Positions 68-8,960 of a stretch of DNA of 21,138 bases are shown in pieces. Source of the DNA: a virus; the IMG/VR virus record IMGVR_UViG_3300021963_000774, positions 1-21,138 of that record. One strand, 5' to 3'. The stretch's first letter is position 1. The number at the start of each line of letters is the position of its first letter. The position numbers and the translations under genes are program-made. The notes beneath the pieces are model-generated. The model did not search any database. It was given only the letters and a program-made list of their open reading frames with translations, and was not told the DNA's origin.

Positions 68-440
68 TGCTCATCTCCTTCTGCATTGATCTCCACACCT
101 CAAGGACTTCTGCAGGCTTGACTTTGGCCTGCACAGCAACAGTTTCTACGAGGCTGGGAAGGGTTTTTGTGTCTGCGTTGTGCGCGTCAAGAGTGACGAG
201 CATAGTGTAGATCTTCCTGCGCCCAGCGTCGTCTGGGGCGTAGGGGTCAGGCGCACTCCACTTCGGGAGACGACGCTCCAGTGAGTGGTCGCGCATTTTG
301 TCGCGGGCCCTCGCTGTAAGGCTCCTGTGCTCCTTCACACACCTGGGGTGCCCGCAGGTCGCGTAGTTTGGAGCCTTGCGGAAGTCCTGACTGCAATACA
401 GGCACCTCCGCACAGGCCAGCGTGATCCTGTGTTAGCCAA
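51..440 (-). CDS. Small zinc-finger protein, function unknown
   Basis: This is a 129-residue protein if the TTG at 440 is the start. A longer open frame exists back to 587, but it lies entirely within the Rpf-like gene and is probably not translated. A GGAGGT lies just upstream of the TTG, with short spacing. Near the N-terminus are C13-x2-C16-x12-C29-x4-C34, a zinc-knuckle arrangement also seen in HNH-type or zinc-ribbon phage proteins. No HNH catalytic residues are evident. The rest is charged and predicted helical. It overlaps the end of the Rpf-like gene by 8 nt and the next gene by 17 nt, so it belongs to the same leftward operon. The start codon is uncertain; GTG alternatives exist nearby. 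Confidence 0.6.
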   Translation of the reverse strand: MANTGSRWPVRRCLYCSQDFRKAPNYATCGHPRCVKEHRSLTARARDKMRDHSLERRLPKWSAPDPYAPDDAGRRKIYTMLVTLDAHNADTKTLPSLVETVAVQAKVKPAEVLEVWRSMQKEMSNARGS

Positions 441-813
441 AGCACCTCCAGGCACCCCATGCCGTGATACCGAAACGGTCCCGAATGGCGTCAGCGACGA
501 GGATGGTCTCGGGAATGGAACCACTCCACAGGCGATAGGGCGAACCTGCGGCATACCAGGTACTCTTGTAGATGCCGAGGCCCCCACCCCATGTGGGACC
601 AGGGTGCGACCAGTTCACTCCCCACTTGCCGTTGCCTGGCTGCTCACAGCGGCCAAGACGCACGAACCCATACCAGTCCGGAACACGCTTCTTCACGTCC
701 TCCATGGTCGGATTCTTTGGGAAGCGGACCTTGTCCCTGGGTGCTGCAACAACAGAGTTACATGTAATACTCGCTCCGAGTATACATGTGAGTATAACGA
801 GGGGTGTACGCAC
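433..813 (-). CDS. Secreted Rpf-like / transglycosylase-like protein
   Basis: This is a 126-residue protein with a GTG start preceded by AAAGG at 7-nt spacing. The N-terminus is a signal peptide: hydrophobic residues 4-23 ending in VVAA|P. The mature part matches the resuscitation-promoting factor/transglycosylase-like fold. It has the catalytic-type Glu57 in R-C56-E57, then a W-G-G-G-L-G-I-Y-K-S-T-W segment (about 75-86), and a C-terminal W-G-A-W-x-C (119-124), as in actinobacterial Rpf domains. Such domains cleave the glycan backbone of peptidoglycan. In a phage, this could be a secreted lysin or a wall-degrading accessory factor. It follows a 30-residue membrane peptide, which could make a small lysis pair; that is inference. 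The domain call is fairly secure, the biological role is not. Confidence 0.75.
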   Translation of the reverse strand: MRTPLVILTCILGASITCNSVVAAPRDKVRFPKNPTMEDVKKRVPDWYGFVRLGRCEQPGNGKWGVNWSHPGPTWGGGLGIYKSTWYAAGSPYRLWSGSIPETILVADAIRDRFGITAWGAWRCFG

Positions 814-831
814 AACTTAACCTTTGTCCGT

Positions 832-924
832 TTACAGAATCGCCGGAATGACCACGACGAAGAGGAGGTACAGAAAGTAGATGTACCCTAGAACGCATGC
901 TAGAGTTGCAGCGCCTTTAAGCAC
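832..924 (-). CDS. 30-residue single-pass membrane peptide
   Basis: The short gene runs from GTG at 924, overlapping the stop of the AbrB-like gene, to a TAA just before the Rpf-like gene. The product begins VLKGAATLACVLGYIYF and stays hydrophobic to its end, so nearly all of it is one membrane-spanning helix with a single Lys near the N-terminus. Longer in-frame versions exist upstream but overlap the AbrB-like gene completely and read as low-complexity Ser/Arg. The ribosome-binding site is weak, so translation probably depends on coupling to the upstream gene. Its position directly before a secreted muralytic protein makes a holin-like or membrane-anchor role possible, but nothing in the sequence proves that. 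Confidence 0.45.
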   Translation of the reverse strand: MLKGAATLACVLGYIYFLYLLFVVVIPAIL

Positions 925-1168
925 CTGCGTCGAACATCTTAGCAAGGGCAATTGCCTCGGGAGCAGGCTCGATCTCGGGAGTCGACTCCTCGCCCGGAAA
1001 GTGCGGCGTGAGGATGATGTCTGTGCCCGAGATCGAGACACGGAACTTGCGCCCGGCAAGGGGCCCGCCGATCTCGGGAGGCAGGCCGATTGAGTAAGAC
1101 ACCTGCCGGTTGGTCGTCGTCTTGCGGACCTTGTAGACCCCGTAGGTCTTGTAGTTACTCGCGCTCAT
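917..1168 (-). CDS. AbrB/SpoVT-like small protein (possible regulator)
   Basis: This is an 83-residue protein starting at an ATG with a good ribosome-binding site (AGAAAGGACACACC before ATG). Residues about 13-55 read K-V-R-K-T-x-x-N-R-Q-V-S-Y-S-I-G-L-P-P-E-I, then G-x-x-F-R-V-S-I-S-G-T-D-I-I-L-T-P. This resembles the swapped-hairpin AbrB/MazE-type DNA-binding domain, in which a beta strand ending in LP is followed by a small hairpin. The C-terminal 25 residues are acidic and Pro-rich, unlike the core. It is the first gene of the leftward operon and faces the winged-helix gene across a 377-bp control region, so an autoregulatory role is plausible. The similarity is short and could be coincidental. 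Confidence 0.55.
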   Translation of the reverse strand: MSASNYKTYGVYKVRKTTTNRQVSYSIGLPPEIGGPLAGRKFRVSISGTDIILTPHFPGEESTPEIEPAPEAIALAKMFDAGA

Positions 1169-1371
1169 GGTGTGTCCTTTCTGTGCGCGGTTTATGTTGT
1201 AGGATCACATTAGACGCCCATGGGCGGAAATACAAATGAGGATATGTAAATTTTGCACGGGGCGGGTGTGGCGTGACCAGGGTGATAATGCAGGATGGGT
1301 AGGGTGGTTGGTAGGTGGAAACAGCGGGTGGTTGCTACCGTCGCCAGGGTCTACGGAGCACACCTTGGTTG

Positions 1372-1407
1372 GTGGGGGGTGGCTCTGTGCGTAGCACAGC
1401 CCCCCAC
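1372..1407. other. Strong G/C hairpin in control region
   Basis: GTGGGGGG (1372-1379) pairs with CCCCCCAC (1400-1407), and CTGTGC (1385-1390) pairs with GCACAG (1394-1399) around a GTA loop. A 5-nt bulge at 1380-1384 separates the two stems. There is no T-run, so it is not an obvious intrinsic terminator. It could be an RNA or DNA structural element. Confidence 0.5.
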
Positions 1408-1475
1408 TCACCAGGGTGGGTGACCCAAGGTTGGGAGGGGGGTAGAAGATGGGGCGGGGGAAAAAAATTTGAGGA

Positions 1476-1502
1476 GGGGGGTTGATTCGGGAAGGGGGTG
1501 GG
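1476..1502 (+). other. G-quadruplex-type motif
   Basis: Four G runs, GGGGGG / GGG / GGGGG / GGG, are separated by loops of 7, 2 and 1 nt. This fits the usual G3+N1-7 rule. A further pair of G-runs lies just upstream (1433-1460). The motif sits 44 bp before the winged-helix start codon. Confidence 0.5.
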
Positions 1503-1545
1503 TGTACGATGCGAGACAGGAGACACGGGCACGGGAGTTGATCGA

Positions 1546-1782
1546 GTGACGGCAGTGGCACAGATCAAGGGGAAGACGGAGCAGCGGGTAGAGGCCGTTG
1601 TCCAGGTTCTGCAGGATGCGTCTGTGCCTCTTGGGTATGGGGAGTTGAGGGAGGCGACAGGAGCCTCGTATGACTCGCTGCTCTACATCCTGGCGACCCT
1701 CGAGGAGATCGGTCGAGTGAAGAGGACGACCGTGTCCATGGGCCCAGGGCGCCCGAAGGTTTATTTCGAGTGGGTTATGTAA
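1546..1782 (+). CDS. Small winged-helix DNA-binding protein
   Basis: This is a 78-residue protein. I chose GTG 1546 because GGGAG lies 8 nt upstream; the longer frame from 1498 begins inside the G-rich region and has no ribosome-binding site. After a short basic start, residues about 12-70 form a compact winged-helix pattern. A first helix (Q-R-V-E-A-V-V-Q-V-L) precedes the recognition pair L-G-Y-G-E-L-R-E-A-T-G-A-S-Y-D-S-L-L-Y-I-L-A-T-L-E, and then the wing G-R-V-K-R-T. This resembles MarR/TrmB/replication-control type winged helices. It stands alone between the divergent control region and the structured region starting at 1783, so a regulator of one or both neighbouring transcription units is the likeliest role. 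The target is unknown. Confidence 0.65.
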   Translation: MTAVAQIKGKTEQRVEAVVQVLQDASVPLGYGELREATGASYDSLLYILATLEEIGRVKRTTVSMGPGRPKVYFEWVM

Positions 1783-1796
1783 GTTAGTTGGGACTG

Positions 1797-1899
1797 GGTT
1801 TTAATTAACCCAGGGGCATGTATGTAACTCTTTTCCTTGGTGGGTTACATGCAATTAACTGTCACTTTGCCGTACAGTGCTCCTGGGTTAATTAAAACC
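1797..1899. repeat. Perfect 18-bp inverted repeat with 67-bp spacer
   Basis: GGTTTTAATTAACCCAGG (1797-1814) has its exact reverse complement at 1882-1899. Inside the spacer, a second stem pairs 1822-1828 (ATGTAAC) with 1844-1850 (GTTACAT). The arms lie immediately after the winged-helix gene. The right arm shares five bases (1895-1899) with the left arm of a different stem (1895-1905/1956-1966), so the two folds exclude each other. Confidence 0.7.
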
Positions 1900-1966
1900 T
1901 AGAGTGGGAGTGGGGCACAGAGGTTTCTTCGTCGTTACTCTGTGTCGTGTCTGGAACTCTAGGTTT
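1895..1966 (+). ncRNA. Candidate structured RNA element (nested stems, TTCGTCGTT loop)
   Basis: The outer stem is AAACCTAGAGT (1895-1905) with ACTCTAGGTTT (1956-1966), a perfect 11 bp. The inner stem GGCACAGAG (1914-1922) pairs with CTCTGTGTC (1938-1946), including one G-U pair, around a loop containing TTCTTCGTCGTTA. The inner hairpin recurs at 4461-4508 with paired base changes and the same loop core, which supports conservation as RNA. A strong terminator follows at 2007. It could be a small RNA, an attenuator-like leader, or only a terminator relic. Confidence 0.45.
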
Positions 1967-2006
1967 GGCGCCTGACTCGCTTTGCTCTTGCCGAGCAGGT
2001 AGCCGC

Positions 2007-2058
2007 AAAGGCAGGCAGATCTTCTTACCTCCGAGATCTGTCTGCCTTTTGCTTTTTT
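2007..2058 (+). terminator. Strong intrinsic terminator
   Basis: A 16-bp stem pairs 2007-2022 (begins AAAGGCAGGCAG) with 2034-2049, with one G-U pair and an 11-nt loop. It is followed by TTTTGCTTTTTT. It ends any transcript from the winged-helix gene and the structured region. The A-run at the foot of the left arm may let it work in both directions. Confidence 0.85.
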
Positions 2059-2080
2059 CCGCCTGGGCCCGGAAAAAATA

Positions 2081-2100
2081 CTAGACCTCTCTGTGCCACG
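2081..2100 (+). repeat. 20-bp intergenic element, copy A
   Basis: CTAGACCTCTCTGTGCCACG. Near-identical copies occur at 4615-4634 and 6123-6142, each downstream of a terminator and upstream of the next small-gene transcription unit. All share CTAGACCTC at the left end and CCACG at the right end. The function is unknown. Confidence 0.7.
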
Positions 2101-2274
2101 CAATTTGGGCGGGCGGGGTCGTGCGCGTCGGGGGACAGTTAGGGGAGTGCGATCTGGTGCTCTGAGTGCGAGGGGTAACAAAGAGAAGTGTAAGAGTGTG
2201 CATAGGGTAGCACGGGGTTGTCACCTCGGTTTTACATACGGCTTACATGGGGCACAACATACTCTGTTGTGTTT

Positions 2275-2294
2275 TGATATGATTATCATATACA
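2275..2294 (+). promoter_or_regulatory. Extended -10 promoter with overlapping operator
   Basis: TGATATGAT (2275-2283) is an extended -10 (TGN plus TATGAT, five of six matches to TATAAT). The inverted repeat ATATGAT-T-ATCATAT (2277-2291) overlaps it, and TTTGAT/ATCAAA flank it at 2273-2278 and 2296-2301. It lies just before the first gene of the small-gene cluster. The sequence CATATACACA (2287-2296) recurs at 6363-6372 before another gene of the cluster. A repressor site covering a promoter is the simplest reading. Confidence 0.5.
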
Positions 2295-2316
2295 CATCAA
2301 ATTGGAGATGTCAAAC

Positions 2317-2496
2317 ATGAATCCGGAGCGTATCACCGTAGAGCAGATCCTGAACGCCCTCCAGAGGGCAGGCGTTGTCGGGGCCTGGGAAATAGAGTAT
2401 GACGGGGCGTTGTTCATTCGCGGAGTTGCGGAGTTTGAGGGCGACCCGGACATCTGGTCCGTGACTCTGGACGTGACTGGGGAGGTTATGGAGTAA
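2317..2496 (+). CDS. Small acidic protein, first member of a paralogous family
   Basis: This 59-residue protein starts at ATG 2317 with GGAG nine bases upstream; an ATG at 2308 in frame is possible but lacks a site. The core reads V-E-Q-I-L-N-A-L-Q-R-A-G-V-V-G-A-W-E-I, a helix then a strand with a conserved Trp. The same pattern is seen in the genes at 3722 (L-Q-A-L-Y-R-S-G-V-I-A-S-W-D) and, more loosely, at 3247. The N-terminal N-P-E-R-I-x-V also resembles T-P-E-N-I-I-V in the gene at 4919. It is acidic overall, has no membrane segment and is coupled by a 1-nt overlap to the next gene. The function is unknown; it is probably an early or accessory phage protein. Confidence 0.7.
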   Translation: MNPERITVEQILNALQRAGVVGAWEIEYDGALFIRGVAEFEGDPDIWSVTLDVTGEVME

Positions 2497-2798
2497 TGCC
2501 GTACATGGAGACAATTACTGAGGGTCAGGCGATTGTGATTGCCGAGGCTCTGCTTGACAAGGGAATTATTCACCCTGCGATGATCTCGGGGCGAAGGCAG
2601 GTGGTGGACATCATCATTGACGCGGGGCGCGTTGAGATAGGGCAGGTGTTCATTCCGGCGGGGGACTACGAGGACTGGTTCGAGGACATCCCGCCCAAGA
2701 GCGAGGACGTGCAAGAGTTTCGGTATGTGTCGCCCGCAGAGAAGCAGTTCGGGGACGCGCTGCTCAGGGCGATTGACGAGTCGAAGGGAGGTGGGTGA
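2496..2798 (+). CDS. Small acidic hypothetical protein
   Basis: This is a 100-residue protein whose ATG shares the A of the upstream TAA; an in-frame ATG at 2505 has better spacing to GGAG and is the alternative start. The beginning, M-E-T-I-T-E-G-Q-A-I-V-I-A-E-A-L-L-D-K, resembles M-E-N-I-T-T-D-Q-A-L-R-I-T-E-K-V-M-E-K of the gene at 5149. Its upstream neighbour is likewise related to the gene before 5149. That suggests a duplicated two-gene unit. The rest is acidic with several Trp, Phe and Tyr and ends in S-K-G-G-G. No known domain is recognised. Confidence 0.7.
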   Translation: MPYMETITEGQAIVIAEALLDKGIIHPAMISGRRQVVDIIIDAGRVEIGQVFIPAGDYEDWFEDIPPKSEDVQEFRYVSPAEKQFGDALLRAIDESKGGG

Positions 2799-2902
2799 TG
2801 GAGGAGAAGGACGAGAGTGTGGAGTACATTGAGTGGCTCAAGATGAGTCAGTTCAGGGATATTACGGAGGAGGTGAGGGCAAAGTTCGACGCGCAGAAGT
2901 AA
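2798..2902 (+). CDS. 34-residue acidic peptide
   Basis: ATG 2798 overlaps the upstream TGA (ATGA), and GGGAGG lies about 7 nt before it, a strong signal for such a short gene. The peptide starts MEEKDESVEYIEWLKMSQF and is rich in Glu and Lys, probably a single amphipathic helix. It is the last gene before the small hairpin GACGGT-TTGCG-ACCGTC at 2909-2925 and the promoter/leader at 2945. The function is unknown. Confidence 0.6.
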   Translation: MEEKDESVEYIEWLKMSQFRDITEEVRAKFDAQK

Positions 2903-2944
2903 CAAAGAGACGGTTTGCGACCGTCCAGGGATGTATTACATTCG

Positions 2945-2974
2945 ATATATGAATCAACGACGAAGGGAATTGTT
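2945..2974 (+). promoter_or_regulatory. Candidate promoter and CAACGACGAA leader, copy 1
   Basis: TATGAA (2948-2953) fits a -10 box. It is followed by TCAACGACGAAGGGAATTGTT and then the GTG start at 2975. Related leaders occur before the starts at 4919, 5649 and 6393, each with CAACGACGRA. GAAGGG within the leader is the likely ribosome-binding site. No clear -35 is seen here. Confidence 0.45.
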
Positions 2975-4023: not shown

Positions 4024-4449
4024 ATGGGGAAGGCACACGACCCGGAGACGTTTGTCGCAGAGTTCGCGGCGACTGAGGGCGACGTTGAGTCCGGAGACGC
4101 GAAGCGATGCACGAAGCACGGTTGCCCCTGTGGCAACGTGCCCCTGATGATGGATGCGTTCTACAGGGACAAGAGTCAGAAGACGGGTAGGGCGTCCTGG
4201 TGCAAGTTGGGTGAGGCGGAGTACAACAAGCCTTACAACAAGGCGCTCAAGGAGCAGGGCGCGCTTCGCAAGAGGGACCTCGCGCCTGAGCAGGTTGCGG
4301 AGTTCGAGAGCGTGATGGCGCCCCAGCGCAAGCCTCGCGTTCCCGGAGTCGAGGTTCAGGTGGCGACCACGGAGAAGGTCGCGCCCAAGAAGAGTGCGCC
4401 GCGCAAGCGCACTCCGCGCAAGAAGGCTGCTGCGACCGCAAAGGCGTAG
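4024..4449 (+). CDS. Endonuclease VII-like zinc-ribbon protein with basic tail
   Basis: This is a 141-residue protein. ATG 4024 follows GGAGGGGG; the longer frame from 3913 is Ser/Arg-rich and covers a hairpin. Residues about 28-70 read K-R-C-T-x-x-x-C-x-C, then D-A-F-Y-R-D-K-S, then S-W-C and E-Y-N-K-P-Y-N-K-A-L. This is the CxxC...F.rd...WCxxC...YN.aY pattern of endonuclease VII/HNH-type phage zinc ribbons, except that the last Cys is Gly here. The C-terminus is histone-like (K-K-S-A-P-R-K-R-T-P-R-K-K-A-A-A), a likely nucleic-acid-binding tail. It has a paralogue at 6393 written in a completely different nucleotide composition. Nuclease activity is not shown. A strong terminator follows directly. 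Confidence 0.7.
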   Translation: MGKAHDPETFVAEFAATEGDVESGDAKRCTKHGCPCGNVPLMMDAFYRDKSQKTGRASWCKLGEAEYNKPYNKALKEQGALRKRDLAPEQVAEFESVMAPQRKPRVPGVEVQVATTEKVAPKKSAPRKRTPRKKAAATAKA

Positions 4450-4597: not shown

Positions 4598-4692
4598 CCC
4601 TCGGGGCAAAACCACTAGACCTCTGTGCGCCACGACTACTCTCAGGGAATATAAAGGCCCTCAGGGCGACTGCAAGTAAGGTTCCCTCAGGG
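4598..4692. repeat. CCCTNAGGG palindrome cluster 1
   Basis: There are exact CCCTCAGGG copies at 4658-4666 and 4684-4692, and one-mismatch copies CCCTCGGGG (4598-4606) and CTCTCAGGG (4639-4647). Several are preceded by TT or followed by C/A. The same palindrome recurs at 5517, 5552, 6052, 6080 and 6188, and I found it only in intergenic DNA of this cluster. Candidate regulator-binding sites. Confidence 0.65.
4615..4634 (+). repeat. 20-bp intergenic element, copy B
   Basis: CTAGACCTCTGTGCGCCACG, followed by ACTACTCT, which also follows copy C closely (GCTACTCT). It sits between two CCCTNAGGG-type sites. Confidence 0.7.
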
Positions 4693-4870
4693 CCTCCTGC
4701 TGTCGCGTGCTGTCGCCTGCTCATGCGCGACCGTGCGTGTGACGCATCAAAACCCGCCTAAATCGCACGCCCTTGCGTTGCAGGTGTCATACATCAAACG
4801 CGAAAAGGGAACCGCGTATATCGCGTCTCGTGACGTTTACACGATGCGTACAAAGGGCGCTTGCATTGCG

Positions 4871-4899
4871 TTCGGAGATATTGCAATATGCATTATGAA
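4871..4899 (+). promoter_or_regulatory. Promoter with ATATTGCAATAT palindrome in spacer, copy 1
   Basis: TTCGGA (4871-4876), 17-bp spacer, TATGAA (4894-4899). The spacer carries the perfect palindrome ATATTGCAATAT (4878-4889). A nearly identical arrangement is found at 5601-5629. The predicted transcript starts in ATCAACGACGGAGC, the shared leader, whose GGAG serves the GTG at 4919. Confidence 0.6.
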
Positions 4900-4918
4900 A
4901 ATCAACGACGGAGCAATC

Positions 4919-5149
4919 GTGAACGACGACAACGATATGACCCCAGAGAACATCATCGTGCGAAACACAATGCAGAGAATTTTCGATGTGATGGAGCCAG
5001 AGGGATTGTTCATCATTGACGAAATCCTCGGCCCGTTTCCCTACGACGACAACGGACCAGAAGTCTTCAGGGTGCGTGTCGTGCGTAACGACGACGACGA
5101 CACCTCGGACTTCGCATTTTACGTTCACGCAGAGGGAGGAACCCTGTAA
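4919..5149 (+). CDS. Small acidic hypothetical protein
   Basis: This is a 76-residue protein from GTG 4919, with GGAG five bases upstream in the CAACGACG leader. An ATG at 4937 would align better with the 2317 paralogue and is the alternative. The segment M-T-P-E-N-I-I-V-x-x-T-M-Q-R-I-F-D-V resembles M-N-P-E-R-I-T-V-x-x-I-L-N-A-L of the 2317 protein. Strands follow (F-I-I-D-E-I-L, V-F-R-V-R-V-V). An N-D-D-D-D run is encoded by a short GAC repeat. The next gene is coupled by TAATG, and that pair mirrors the 2317/2496 pair. The function is unknown. Confidence 0.65.
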   Translation: MNDDNDMTPENIIVRNTMQRIFDVMEPEGLFIIDEILGPFPYDDNGPEVFRVRVVRNDDDDTSDFAFYVHAEGGTL

Positions 5150-5451
5150 TGGAGAACATCACGACGGACCAGGCGCTCCGTATCACGGAGAAGGTTATGG
5201 AGAAGTTCGGAGACGCAATCGGAGGGAACCCGCAAATCGTAGAGCGCATCATGTTCGGAGTCATTGACTCGGCCTGCGAAAACGACGACGACGACGACGG
5301 GGAGGTGTTTCAGGGCCTTGACCCTGCGATTGCGGGCAGAGTCGCACGCATGATTGTCCAGTACAGGGACGATTGCGAAATCAACCTGAACACGTTAGGG
5401 TGGCGAGGTTGGACCGTGTTGTTGTGTGAGAGCGACATTGAGGTAGAGTAG
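5149..5451 (+). CDS. Small acidic hypothetical protein, likely paralogue of the 2496 gene
   Basis: This 100-residue protein has an ATG sharing the final A of the upstream TAA, with GGGAGGAA 8-9 nt before it. The start M-E-N-I-T-T-D-Q-A-L-R-I-T-E-K-V-M-E-K resembles that of the 2496 protein, which is also 100 residues long. A run of Asp (N-D-D-D-D-D-G, about 45-51) comes from a GAC repeat. Then follow D-P-A-I-A-G-R-V-A-R-M-I-V-Q-Y and a Trp-rich end. The protein is strongly acidic, which would fit a DNA-mimic or inhibitor role, but that is only a thought. No terminator is obvious after it. Confidence 0.7.
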   Translation: MENITTDQALRITEKVMEKFGDAIGGNPQIVERIMFGVIDSACENDDDDDGEVFQGLDPAIAGRVARMIVQYRDDCEINLNTLGWRGWTVLLCESDIEVE

Positions 5452-5516
5452 GGTAAACGTGTACGGGGTACGCAACATGCACGCGGGGTCAAAACAAGGG
5501 AAGGGGGGTACAAGTT

Positions 5517-5560
5517 CCCTAAGGGGGTTCAGGTGATAGGGGTGGGGTATGCCCTCAGGG
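5517..5560. repeat. CCCTNAGGG palindrome cluster 2
   Basis: CCCTAAGGG (5517-5525) and CCCTCAGGG (5552-5560) lie in the 197-bp gap between 5451 and 5649. They are 41-84 bp upstream of the TTCAGA box of the next promoter. The rest of the gap is G-rich with no gene. Confidence 0.65.
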
Positions 5561-5600
5561 TACCGGGATGCGATGTTTTACAAAGAGCGGCACATACACG

Positions 5601-5629
5601 TTCAGAGATATTGTAATATAAATTATGAA
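5601..5629 (+). promoter_or_regulatory. Promoter with ATATTGTAATAT palindrome in spacer, copy 2
   Basis: TTCAGA (5601-5606), 17-bp spacer with ATATTGTAATAT (5608-5619), TATGAA (5624-5629). It matches the copy at 4871-4899 in spacing and sequence. The leader CAACGACGAAAGGGAAACA follows and ends at ATG 5649. Confidence 0.6.
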
Positions 5630-5648
5630 CAACGACGAAAGGGAAACA

Positions 5649-5993
5649 ATGTCAATGCCTGTCACGCACATCGCTCTTGACGCTCACGACATCCTGGTCC
5701 GCAGGCAAATGTGCCCCGTGATGAAAACGATCACCGCGGACTACATCGTGTTCGAAACGCTCCCCTTCCTGGACTACTACCTGGGTTGGTCCATGGTCCG
5801 CTGGCACATCACCCTGCTCGATGACCCCGACGACAATGCGTGCATCGGCGTAGAGCAGTGGGGTAGCACGACGCCCGCGGGGGACACGTTCACAGAGGAC
5901 AAAGACATGCGCGGAGATCACGAGTTTGAGTCCCTGCACGCCGCACTCCGCTGGGTGTTCACAGAGCGCGAGAGCATCATCAACAACCCGTAG
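5649..5993 (+). CDS. Hypothetical protein
   Basis: This is a 114-residue protein. ATG 5649 is favoured because GAAAGGG lies 6 nt upstream in the shared leader. An ATG at 5625 is in frame but falls inside the predicted -10 box, so it would lie upstream of the transcript start. The sequence has H-I-A-L-D-A-H-D-I-L-V-R-R, then Y-I-V-F-E-T-L-P-F-L-D-Y-Y-L-G-W-S-M-V-R-W-H-I-T-L-L-D-D, and ends F-E-S-L-H-A-A-L-R-W-V-F-T-E-R-E. It is acidic and soluble, with several Trp and Tyr. No family is recognised. It is a single-gene transcription unit with its own promoter and terminator. Confidence 0.7.
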   Translation: MSMPVTHIALDAHDILVRRQMCPVMKTITADYIVFETLPFLDYYLGWSMVRWHITLLDDPDDNACIGVEQWGSTTPAGDTFTEDKDMRGDHEFESLHAALRWVFTERESIINNP

Positions 5994-6007
5994 GGTTCAC
6001 GAGATCA

Positions 6008-6038
6008 GGGCGAGGCGACGTTTGCCTCGCTCTTTTCT
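6008..6038 (+). terminator. Intrinsic terminator
   Basis: GGGCGAGGC (6008-6016) pairs with GCCTCGCTC (6024-6032), with one G-U pair, around GACGTTT. TTTTCTT follows. It lies 14 bp after the stop at 5993. Confidence 0.8.
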
Positions 6039-6051
6039 TGTCGCACTTTTT

Positions 6052-6196
6052 CCCTCAGGGAACTGGGCACACACTTTTTCCCTTAGGGCAAAATTTCTTC
6101 TCTCCTCGGGGCCCCCAGAGTGCTAGACCTCCCTGTCCCACGGCTACTCTAAGCCCGTTGCATCCTCAATTGTTGCGTGTGCAAATTCCCTCAGGG
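6052..6196. repeat. CCCTNAGGG palindrome cluster 3
   Basis: CCCTCAGGG (6052-6060), CCCTTAGGG (6080-6088) and CCCTCAGGG (6188-6196), plus a one-off TCCTCGGGG (6103-6111). The central base varies (C, T, and A elsewhere) while the arms are constant, as expected for a dyad recognised by a dimer. Confidence 0.65.
6123..6142 (+). repeat. 20-bp intergenic element, copy C
   Basis: CTAGACCTCCCTGTCCCACG, followed by GCTACTCT. It sits after the terminator at 6008 and between CCCTNAGGG sites, the same order as copy B. Confidence 0.7.
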
Positions 6197-6255: not shown

Positions 6256-6310
6256 TATTTACAAAAAATTTACAAATGGGTATTTACATTTTTCATACAT
6301 TTCGTTTACA
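6256..6310 (+). repeat. Four TTTACA repeats in AT-rich DNA
   Basis: TTTACA occurs at 6258-6263, 6269-6274, 6283-6288 and 6305-6310; TATTTACA is exact at 6256 and 6281. These could be -35-like boxes or short iterons. The last lies 20 bp before a perfect TATAAT at 6331-6336. Confidence 0.4.
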
Positions 6311-6330
6311 AAATCCACACATATACAAAT

Positions 6331-6370
6331 TATAATACACGCATACACACAAACATGTGTGTCATATACA
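6331..6370 (+). promoter_or_regulatory. Candidate promoter region for the RG-free gene
   Basis: A perfect TATAAT (6331-6336) lies 20 bp after TTTACA, which is a long spacing. A second -10-like TATACA (6365-6370) sits in CATATACACA, which is shared with 2287-2296. Between them is the hairpin ACACACA-AACA-TGTGTGT (6345-6362). Which box is used is unclear. Confidence 0.4.
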
Positions 6371-6392
6371 CAACGACGAAACGAATATAACA

Positions 6393-6776
6393 ATGTCAAA
6401 TGCACGTGTATCACAAATGAATGACGCAACGTTTATGAAAACGTTTCGCGCAACACGTAACGACGTAAAAAACAACAACGCGAAAATGTGTACGAACGAA
6501 ACGTGCGTATCACATAACACGAATGACATGTTGCGACACGATGCGTTCGCACGTGACAACGCACAACGCGATAACATGTGTGTGTGGTGTCGTCGTTGCG
6601 AATCGATATACAATCGCGCATACGCGCGTGCGTTGCGCGAATGTAACGTGCGCACGCGACGCGAAATCAACGACATTATCGACGACGACGCACGCAACGC
6701 GATGCACGACAAATTCGACACGATCATGCGCGAATGTAACGTGCGATCGCGTCGATACACACGACGTAATTCGTAA
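6393..6776 (+). CDS. RG-free paralogue of the 4024 zinc-ribbon protein
   Basis: This is a 127-residue protein from ATG 6393. The leader ACAACGACGAAACGAATATA has no Shine-Dalgarno, which cannot exist here without AG/GG. It aligns with the 4024 protein: A-T-F-M-K-T-F-R-A-T-R-N-D-V against E-T-F-V-A-E-F-A-A-T-E-G-D-V, a shared C-T-x-x-x-C, D-A-F-x-R-D, V-W-C-x-x-C, and Y-N-R-A-Y-A-R-A-L. The full W-C-R-R-C pair is kept here (Cys33, 38, 63, 66, 69), so zinc binding is more likely than in the paralogue. There is no Gly and no Pro. Lys is always AAA, Glu GAA, Gln CAA, Leu TTG and Arg CGN. R-E-C-N-V-R-x-R-R occurs twice (82-90, 113-121). It is very basic, so nucleic-acid binding is plausible; its activity is unknown. 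Confidence 0.75.
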   Translation: MSNARVSQMNDATFMKTFRATRNDVKNNNAKMCTNETCVSHNTNDMLRHDAFARDNAQRDNMCVWCRRCESIYNRAYARALRECNVRTRREINDIIDDDARNAMHDKFDTIMRECNVRSRRYTRRNS

Positions 6777-6859
6777 CATGTAACAACGCGCACGCGCACA
6801 TACACAACATATGTATGTGCGCGTGCGTGTTACATGTAACAAAAACATAAATTTTTTTT
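6776..6859 (+). terminator. Long hairpin and T-runs after the RG-free gene
   Basis: ACATGTAACA (6776-6785) pairs with 6828-6837, and CGCACGCGCACATAC (6789-6803) pairs with 6813-6827. The stem is 25 bp with a 3-nt bulge. It starts on the last base of the stop codon. The T8 run (6852-6859) is 14 bp beyond the stem, farther than usual, so termination is likely but not textbook. The arm is alternating purine-pyrimidine (CGCGCACGCGCACA), a Z-DNA-prone pattern. Confidence 0.6.
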
Positions 6860-7015
6860 ATCATTTTTTTATTCATATTTTTTATGACACGTATCAAACC
6901 GGCTTATGCAAATTTCGATATCGGAGACTAGAGCTGCAGCTAGCGCAAAACATAAAAGGAGGGTGGTTAGAAAAGGGATTTACATGCGCTGGAAAGAGTT
7001 GTTATCATCCACGCC
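6860..7015. other. AT-rich gap before the structural operon
   Basis: This gap has T-runs at 6864-6870 and about 6878-6883, then an abrupt return to normal composition at 6899. AGCTGCAGCT (6932-6941) is a perfect 10-bp palindrome flanked by CTAG-type bases. AAAGGAGG ends near 6961 but is about 54 nt from the TerS ATG. A promoter for the structural genes would be expected here, but I cannot point to one with confidence. Confidence 0.3.
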
Positions 7016-7573
7016 ATGGCACAAAAGAAGCATCCAGCAAAAACACCAGGCAAGCCTACCATCTGGGGTAAATACAACCAGGCACGCCACACTACTATTG
7101 TGGAGGCGATCAGGTCAGGCAATTCCAAGTCAAACGCCTTCCGCCTTGCAGGCATCTCTATTGACACAGGCACGGAGTGGCTCAGGTACGGACGTGAGAG
7201 GCCTGAGGAGTACCCATACTACGCCAAGTTGTACGAGGAAGTAGAGCAGGCGCTTGCTGAGTACGAGGCAACCCGCGTCTCTCTGGTCACGACAGCAGCA
7301 GACACCGGAACCTGGCAAGCAGCCGCATGGTGGCTTGAGAGGCGTAACCCAGACGAGTGGGGTAGGCATGATCGGGTCAAGCATGAAGTCAATAATCGTC
7401 CAACCGTCCAACTCAACCAGGTGATCCTGGAAGATGCCTCAGCAAGAGAACTTTCCCGCAACCTCCTCCGTCAGTTGGCCTCAAATCGCGCAGATGTCAC
7501 CCTCGGGCCTGGCCATGTACGCGAACTTGCCGAAAACGGAGAAGACGGACGGGACACCGTACACGCCAGCTGA
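7016..7573 (+). CDS. terS: Terminase small subunit
   Basis: This 185-residue protein lies immediately before the large terminase. The N-terminal part after a basic start (K-K-H-P-A-K-T) carries a helix-turn-helix, A-F-R-L-A-G-I-S-I-D-T-G-T-E-W-L-R-Y-G (about 42-60). A helical oligomerisation region follows, then W-Q-A-A-A-W-W-L-E-R-R-N-P-D-E-W-G (about 100-116), typical of actinophage small terminases. It recognises the packaging site and loads the genome on the large subunit. ATG 7016 is the only plausible start after the in-frame TAG at 6968; its ribosome-binding site is weak. The C-terminal 47 codons overlap the annotated start of TerL in another frame, so either a long overlap is real or TerL starts later. 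Confidence 0.75.
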   Translation: MAQKKHPAKTPGKPTIWGKYNQARHTTIVEAIRSGNSKSNAFRLAGISIDTGTEWLRYGRERPEEYPYYAKLYEEVEQALAEYEATRVSLVTTAADTGTWQAAAWWLERRNPDEWGRHDRVKHEVNNRPTVQLNQVILEDASARELSRNLLRQLASNRADVTLGPGHVRELAENGEDGRDTVHAS

Positions 7574-8960
7574 ATCTCGCTGGATCCACGCTCGTCACGT
7601 TGACTACCTTGACCAGATTCTGGTTGATCTTTATGCTGGTGTGTACCGTGAACTTGGTTACGTCGGGGTCATTGTCGAAGAACCTCCCCGGCACGGAAAA
7701 TCCGAACTCTGTTCGCACTACAACCCGGCGTGGTATCTCGGCACGCGGCCGGACGACAGGATCATTCTGGCATCCTATGAAGCGACCTTTGCTGCGACGT
7801 GGGGGCGCAAAGCGCGAGACACCCTGACCGAATACGGCAAGGACGTGTTCGGAATCGAGATCAGTCCTAGGTCGTCTGCGATGGACGCTTGGGACATTAA
7901 GGGTCACAAGGGCGGCATGTTCACCGCAGGCGCAGGTGGTGCGATCACTGGTAAGGGCGCGAACGTGCTGATCGCCGACGACCTGATTAAGAACGCGCAA
8001 GAAGCATCCTCTGACCTCATGCGAGAAAGGTTGTGGGAGTGGTGGAAGACGACGTTCCGAACGCGCCTCGAGCCAAATGGAGTGATCTTCGTGATCGGTA
8101 CCCGCTGGCACGAGGACGACGTAATCGGGCGCCTTCTTGCTGTTCAGGGCGATTCCCGTGAGGGCAAGAATCACCACCTTTACGACCCGGATGGAGATCG
8201 CTACATTCGTGTTCGCCTACCTGCTATTGCAGAGGAACCCGACGACGAGTTTCCGGATCCTGATCCCCTCGGTCGAAAGCCAGGCGAACCCCTCTTCCCG
8301 GAACGCTGGCCTGTCCAGGCACTCAGGCCCCTCATGGGATCATCCACCTGGGCAGCGCTGTATCAGCAGAGGCCTGTGCCCAAGGAGGGTGGCCTATTTA
8401 ACTCGAAGAACTTTCCGCTCGTTCCAGTCCCGCCAGGGCGGTTCAAGAAACTCGTGAGACGGTTTGACCTCGCGGCAACCGAGAAGCGCCCGGGCGAGGA
8501 TCCTGACTACACAGTAGGACTTCTCATGGGACAGCACGAGGACGGGAACTTCTATGTCTTGGACCTCGTGCGGGATCGCGTGTCTCCTGAAGGCGTTGAG
8601 AACATTCTGAAGCGAACGCTGCGCGAGGACCGCATGAAGTACGGGTCCATGGTGAAGTTCACGGTAGAACGTGAACCGGGATCGCAGGGCAAGTTGTATG
8701 CTCGCCATTTGGCAACTAGAATTTTTCGGGGTTCAAACTTCCGAGCCATTCCGTCCACAGGATCTAAGATGCTGCGCGCTGATACAGTTGCGGCAGCAAG
8801 TGAGCGGGAAGAGGTGCGCCTTGTGAGGGCACCGTGGAATAGAGAATTTCTACACGAGGTACAGCATTTCCCCTTCGGCAAGCATGACGATCAAGTGGAT
8901 GCCCTGTCTGGTGCCTACCAGGACCTCACGCAACGGGGCGGAAAATTCGTTACCTGGTAA
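7434..8960 (+). CDS. terL: Terminase large subunit (packaging ATPase and nuclease)
   Basis: This is a 508-residue protein of normal length for the family. The ATPase domain has the Walker A-type P85-R-H-G-K-S90 and Walker B V-L-I-A-D182-D183-L. The RNase H-like nuclease domain has D345 (R-F-D-L-A-A-T), E412/E414 (V-E-R-E-P-G) and the final K-H-D485-D486-Q-V-D489-A-L. It cuts concatemers and drives DNA into the procapsid through the portal. Starts at 7434, 7494 and 7515 are all possible and none has a strong ribosome-binding site. Clear homology begins near residue 45 (Y-T-P-A-E-S-R-W-I), so the true N-terminus is uncertain. Confidence 0.92.
   Translation: MPQQENFPATSSVSWPQIAQMSPSGLAMYANLPKTEKTDGTPYTPAESRWIHARHVDYLDQILVDLYAGVYRELGYVGVIVEEPPRHGKSELCSHYNPAWYLGTRPDDRIILASYEATFAATWGRKARDTLTEYGKDVFGIEISPRSSAMDAWDIKGHKGGMFTAGAGGAITGKGANVLIADDLIKNAQEASSDLMRERLWEWWKTTFRTRLEPNGVIFVIGTRWHEDDVIGRLLAVQGDSREGKNHHLYDPDGDRYIRVRLPAIAEEPDDEFPDPDPLGRKPGEPLFPERWPVQALRPLMGSSTWAALYQQRPVPKEGGLFNSKNFPLVPVPPGRFKKLVRRFDLAATEKRPGEDPDYTVGLLMGQHEDGNFYVLDLVRDRVSPEGVENILKRTLREDRMKYGSMVKFTVEREPGSQGKLYARHLATRIFRGSNFRAIPSTGSKMLRADTVAAASEREEVRLVRAPWNREFLHEVQHFPFGKHDDQVDALSGAYQDLTQRGGKFVTW

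Follow-up and report, generated by a model that had tools for sequence, protein, structure and literature searches.

A 618-bp transcription unit of an uncultured phage is almost entirely free of G preceded by a purine (RG, which reads CY on the other strand), and this ban is maintained by selection on double-stranded DNA. The unit lies in the window, i.e., the whole stretch of 21,138 nucleotides that was analyzed (IMG/VR record IMGVR_UViG_3300021963_000774). The dinucleotide count of positions 6281-6898 gave 0 AG, 0 CT, one CC (at 6315), and one GG (at 6586), and the first violations beyond the unit are a GG at 6278-6279 on the left and a CC at 6899 on the right. The ban had been described in an initial annotation made from the sequence alone, and our recount returned exactly its coordinates and counts.

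In 5,000 mononucleotide shuffles of the unit, 128.3 RG/CY steps were expected (sd 8.0, minimum 97). Resampling the synonymous codons of its open reading frame (ORF) with the codon usage of the phage's own structural genes gave an expectation of 52 ± 6, with one seen. Even when codons were swapped within amino acids, keeping the exact codon counts and the protein (a shuffle that the initial annotation had called for), 9.3 ± 2.1 were expected and 0 of 5,000 shuffles was as low as the ORF, which means that the codon junctions are under selection too. The non-coding flanks obey the rule separately: the 112-bp 5′ part has one RG/CY step out of 15.7 expected, the 122-bp 3′ part none out of 19.5. Thus, chance, codon bias, and amino-acid bias are ruled out as causes by the shuffles. 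The initial annotation was right that the rule spans codon junctions, upstream region, and hairpin, that it is not codon bias, and that the depletion is strand-symmetric and so acts on double-stranded DNA. Once RG/CY was excluded, no constraint above the dinucleotide level was found, every legal tetranucleotide with an expectation >2 being present; G and C are shifted into CG, GC, AC, and GT steps (CG odds 2.66).

The rule overrides the protein code. Gly and Pro codons necessarily contain GG or CC, and both residues are missing from the encoded protein (P about 3e-7) and from its homolog in the nearest relative, the IMG/VR contig L003 (P about 1e-7). The sole GG sits within the TGG codon for Trp65, as already proposed, a residue that all seven aligned family members share. 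The Shine-Dalgarno sequence is lost in the purged leader, which shows the strength of the constraint.

In the remainder of the window RG/CY steps are normal (odds AG 1.04, GG 0.92, CC 0.81, CT 1.12), with on the order of 150 sites per 600 bp elsewhere in the genome, and AG is only slightly reduced in the other early ORFs. Across 1.8 Mb of fetched phage DNA, the lowest observed/expected value of any 300-bp stretch outside the two RG-free units was 0.43, against about 0.02 in the unit. As in restriction-site avoidance, selection has cleared both strands of a short motif at the expense of codon choice. Known cases of that kind, however, purge the whole genome, whereas here one unit is purged and the genome-wide depletion that marks them was not found in the rest of the window.

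L003 was the one close relative found in IMG/VR (TerL 85% identical). At the corresponding place upstream of the terminase small subunit gene (terS), it has a 596-bp unit that is free of RG/CY except for ACCTGG at the equivalent Trp codon and is bounded by the same edges (Table 1). The homolog thus keeps the ban, while the initial annotation had held that one of normal composition would refute it, and the recurrence in an independent contig rules out an assembly artifact. The two RG-free proteins are only about 40% identical, and the ORFs differ at 169 nucleotides over 121 aligned codons, with third codon positions most diverged (identity 0.45 versus 0.58); of all point changes possible, about half would violate the rule. 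An equal ban at an equal locus despite such protein divergence indicates that it is kept by selection on double-stranded DNA and not by import, and the comparison shows that this selection is strong and continuing. The strict RG-free units known are these two, from two fragment contigs.

Table 1. Features of the window and motif-poor blocks of related contigs
Feature	Contig	Position	Strand	Remarks
Paralog, normal composition, Endo VII zinc-ribbon-like	Window	4024..4449	+	phrog_1035, E 1.4e-5; L003 has one too
Three CCCTNAGGG palindromes (6052, 6080, 6188)	Window	6052..6196	+	RG-rich, just outside the RG-free unit
21-bp non-coding block GCTAGACCTCCCTGTCCCACG	Window	6122..6142	+	Identical in L003; repeat family placed ahead of early units
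RG-free autonomous transcription unit	Window	6281..6898	+	Edges GGGTATT (left) and ACCGGC (right), conserved in L003
Tentative promoter	Window	6305..6336	+	TTTACA 6305-6310, TATAAT 6331-6336; spacing 20, not ideal; weak consensus match
Leader CAACGACGAAACGA..	Window	6371..6392	+	Purged copy of common phage leader CAACGACGAAAGGG..; repeat family D6
ORF, 127 aa, basic zinc-ribbon-like protein without Gly or Pro	Window	6393..6776	+	Trp65 codon holds the GG
Very stable 3′ hairpin, then T-rich DNA	Window	6770..6843	+	MFE -43.6 kcal/mol, z -7.2
Terminase small subunit (synteny anchor)	Window	7016..7573	+	phrog_4102, E 7e-30
AGH-poor block	L018	4663-7143
AGH-poor block	G001 (contig of L013)	25428-27943		= L165 5428-7943
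AGH-poor block	G002 (contig of L022)	19340-21287		= L167 19340-20000 + L168 1-1287
AGH-poor block	G003	217-2451		L170
AGA-only-poor block	G025	258-2950		L175

The unit is built from the phage's own parts. The early units of the window phage share a leader (CAACGACGAAAGGG..ATG), the ACAAAGAG element, and upstream CCCTNAGGG palindromes. The tentative promoter overlaps a purged copy of the ACAAAGAG element, common to the other early units, which takes the form ACAAAATC in the window and ACAAAATG in L003. These purged copies of leader and element, together with the synteny in L003 and the resident paralog, led us to reject a foreign origin. The earlier suggestion of import from a genome under such a rule is contradicted by the reuse of own leader elements in purged form and by the L003 unit at the same locus. 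The 3′ hairpins (6770-6843 in the window, 4543-4612 in L003) are about 28-33 bp long, far longer than the other terminators here; both phages retain the hairpin although its sequence differs, and a T-tract follows it in the window only. The window holds further CCCTNAGGG copies at 4658, 4684, 5517, and 5552, giving 7 found versus 0.26 expected. These palindromes, of which L003 has 11, and a CTAGACCTCNCTGTCNCACGG repeat precede early units (window 4658-6196; L003 1652-3851) and look like operators of one regulator.

The encoded protein did not match phrog_1035, the phage endonuclease VII family that its paralogs match in the window and in L003 (E 2.2e-6 for the latter). Ten positions are invariant across seven aligned members (M1, C33, F52, D55, W65, Y73, L81, M112, R118, and R121 in first-sequence numbering); no His or Asn is among them, unlike the catalytic HNH residues of endonuclease VII. 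No nuclease or known DNA-binding domain was recognized in the product, and its AlphaFold model (pLDDT 79) had no PDB match. Searches of INPHARED phages found no homolog of the RG-free protein or of its paralog. The RG-free protein searched alone in viral contigs returned nothing, a two-sequence profile search returned L003 only, and a DNA pattern derived from the protein motif returned L003 only in viral contigs and nothing in genome contigs. The window terminase had only distant matches in genome contigs.

Narrower bans of the same kind occur in more distant relatives. The fetched loci (about 1.8 Mb) were scanned, and L018, G001/L013, G002/L022, and G003 each have a sharply bounded AG/CT-poor block of 1.9-2.5 kb (Table 1). 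These blocks lie in the syntenic early module, which has a helix-turn-helix gene on one side and terS on the other. AGA, AGC, and AGT are depleted in these blocks while AGG is mostly tolerated, and their scores are 62-90, whereas none of the 88 control loci scored above 12. The AGA-only block of G025 is weaker, but its score of 32 is above its own shuffle null and all controls (best 24, L030). CGN and TGN are undepleted in every block. The avoided steps are therefore nested, AGA (G025) within AGH (L018, G001, G002, G003) within RGN (window, L003), and every block, G025's included, lies in the same early module and avoids G where a purine comes before it. In all blocks open to checking, a zinc-ribbon gene is present.

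Other stretches were less clear. In L030, a 29-kb contig without a QueC match, AGA and GAA are scarce in a stretch ahead of the terminase (6536-8364), which may reflect composition or another weak block. In phage 9g (L163), a region of small early-looking genes (24413-28241) is AGA-poor (ratio 0.47, score 21); as a comparable block it is unconvincing, other motifs scoring equally high in that genome. GA-poor regions in CAjan and Dp-1 were discarded because they looked repeat- or composition-driven.

The relatives with blocks also carry genes for guanine modification. The near-complete G001, G002, G003, and G025 encode FolE, QueD, QueE, and QueC, as well as a DpdA2-like protein beside DNA polymerase A, i.e., the pathway of the 7-deazaguanine (dPreQ0/dG+) phages 9g, CAjan, Iggy, and Rosebush, which have DpdA together with these four proteins. 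Compared with the annotated DNA guanine transglycosylase of Flavobacterium phage immuto, the DpdA2-like protein shows 26% identity (E 2e-10). These proteins were missed by the TGT Pfam model, and an hhalign profile comparison to 9g/CAjan DpdA was negative; 9g DpdA as a query is reported not to detect DpdA2 (Hutinet et al. 2019, PMC6884629). We noticed no amidotransferase in the set of predicted proteins, and on the basis of the same paper dPreQ0 would be the simplest modification product. The share of G that falls within the motif is 6% for AGA, 19.5% for AGH, and 48% for RG; phage deazaguanines known so far replace about 25-32% of G. A phrog_16018 protein is conserved beside the DpdA2-like gene in G001, G002, and G003 (L164 4667-5479, minus strand; L169 7939-8700, minus strand) and is a possible partner of the modification pathway.

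QueC was present in 5 of 32 contigs tested, namely, the four above and G022. The latter, a remote relative (L173, L174), has QueC, FolE, and QueD-like and QueE-like matches, with no block and no detectable DpdA2-like gene. No AG block was seen in the loci of the 27 contigs without QueC, which reach no further than about 10 kb to either side. Among deazaguanine-pathway phages, no comparable block was found in CAjan, 9g, Dp-1, Hedgerow, PAJD-1, R7M, Sour, or the available part of immuto, and the trait is thus no general property of deazaguanine phages. No dpd gene is visible in the window contig itself; the window and L003 contigs are fragments without the replication region, and dpd genes were seen in relatives only. 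The other pre-replicative genes, dpd genes included, are not purged.

Our leading explanation, which we hold tentatively and rate somewhat short of an even chance, is that the early cassette was purged of RG so as to stay free of the phage's own DNA modification. The phage would make preQ0, and DpdA would swap G for 7-deazaguanine at a short motif of purine plus G, which would be RG in the clade of the window and AGH or AGA in its relatives. Virion DNA would then enter the cell modified almost everywhere, leaving the RG-free cassette unmodified and readable at once by unmodified host machinery; the zinc-ribbon product could assist the onset of expression from modified DNA or take over the host in another way. 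With a shade more caution, the clade as a whole may keep its first-expressed operon free of the motif recognized by its DNA-modifying enzyme, the virion being marked nearly everywhere but in one readable start cassette. In favor are the nested purine-G bans in one early module and the deazaguanine genes in the four near-complete relatives with a block; these points are not independent, as a single clade supplies both the blocks and the dpd genes. Because RG stays abundant in the rest of the genome, the phage must tolerate whatever acts there, as would suit a mark of its own making. The identity of the avoided motif with that of DpdA, and with it the link to this enzyme, is suggested by circumstantial evidence; a dpdA gene in the window phage is likewise only presumed, as are the early expression of the unit and the reason for its staying unmodified. 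DNA modification normally protects against restriction, so leaving an early cassette unprotected must bring a benefit. The simplest benefit would be that host RNA polymerase or an early regulator has to read the cassette immediately, the rest of the virion DNA being modified. Hutinet et al. 2019 (PMC6884629) note that 7-deazaguanines might block sigma and transcription factors. Of the causes put forward in the initial annotation, avoidance of a modification now has the strongest support, given that nested motifs are purged from the same operon in relatives with deazaguanine DNA-modification genes.

Some other double-stranded DNA constraint tied to the early module, e.g., DNA shape or RNA polymerase pausing, would agree with the several deazaguanine phages that do not have the feature, but it would make the nested purine-G series with dpd genes a coincidence, and we consider it rather doubtful. 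Still less probable is that the unit is exempt from an RG-acting double-stranded DNA binder or nicker (silencer, terminator, nickase, or nuclease), perhaps encoded by the zinc-ribbon gene itself, and stays active during shutdown. This would suit a strand-symmetric ban that covers presumed promoter, ORF, and hairpin, and a small basic zinc-ribbon-like product from a unit with its own leader and terminator-like hairpin. However, a nuclease would destroy a phage whose remaining genome is RG-dense, the product has no recognized domain of the relevant kinds, and nested motifs together with deazaguanine genes in relatives are not what such an activity predicts. A removal of primase sites, by which a DnaG-type primase starting with RG (template 5′-CY) lays no primers in the early module or in an origin within it, appears very unlikely. 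DnaG primases do make purine-first primers on CT-containing templates, and a primase-like protein is encoded near the early module in G001, G002, and G003; yet there is no known reason for keeping exactly one transcription unit primer-free, block edges track gene edges, and the co-occurrence with dpd genes is left unexplained.

The avoided steps AG and GG equal the NRG PAM set, and the unit might evade a nuclease, restriction system, or CRISPR effector of the host that reads an NRG-like motif; the initial annotation had proposed escape from a nuclease or CRISPR effector. We give this reading hardly any credit, since one cut at any site would be lethal for the phage and its remaining genome shows no RG depletion (AG 1.04, GG 0.92), while the relatives tolerate GG. 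The least credible reading is a mutational one, in which a base-changing process such as deamination targets RG/CY in the unit until its sites are exhausted. Dinucleotide specificity and fast protein divergence could be expected from such a process, but composition led us to reject it: GC content stays high (46-60% across windows of the L003 unit), G and C moved into the permitted steps rather than being lost, and the ban edges match the unit edges, so that a spectrum creating CpG and GpC would be needed.

A near-absolute 2-bp rule over about 600 bp, with nested recurrence across a phage clade, is not a pattern that we can match to any known system. Iggy offers a short G-centered motif, a single GA motif according to the title of Olsen 2023 as cited in PMC11008142, whereas the motif avoided here is purine-G. 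In T4, Alc and host shut-off systems let the modification state decide which DNA is transcribed. Discrimination based on modification is shared as an idea, with no sequence relation, and here it would be built in by motif avoidance. In the open-license literature we found no precedent for modification-motif-free early genes, which is a weak sign that none exists. If the deazaguanine reading is true, the avoided motif reveals the DpdA specificity of uncultured phages from sequence alone, and base modification hinders early gene expression; if the clade-wide reading is true, the window of early gene expression is set by a dinucleotide motif. The sole hint of a host is a weak match (E 0.12) of window positions 433-813, minus strand, to the transglycosylase family PF06737, which we take to be associated with actinobacteria.
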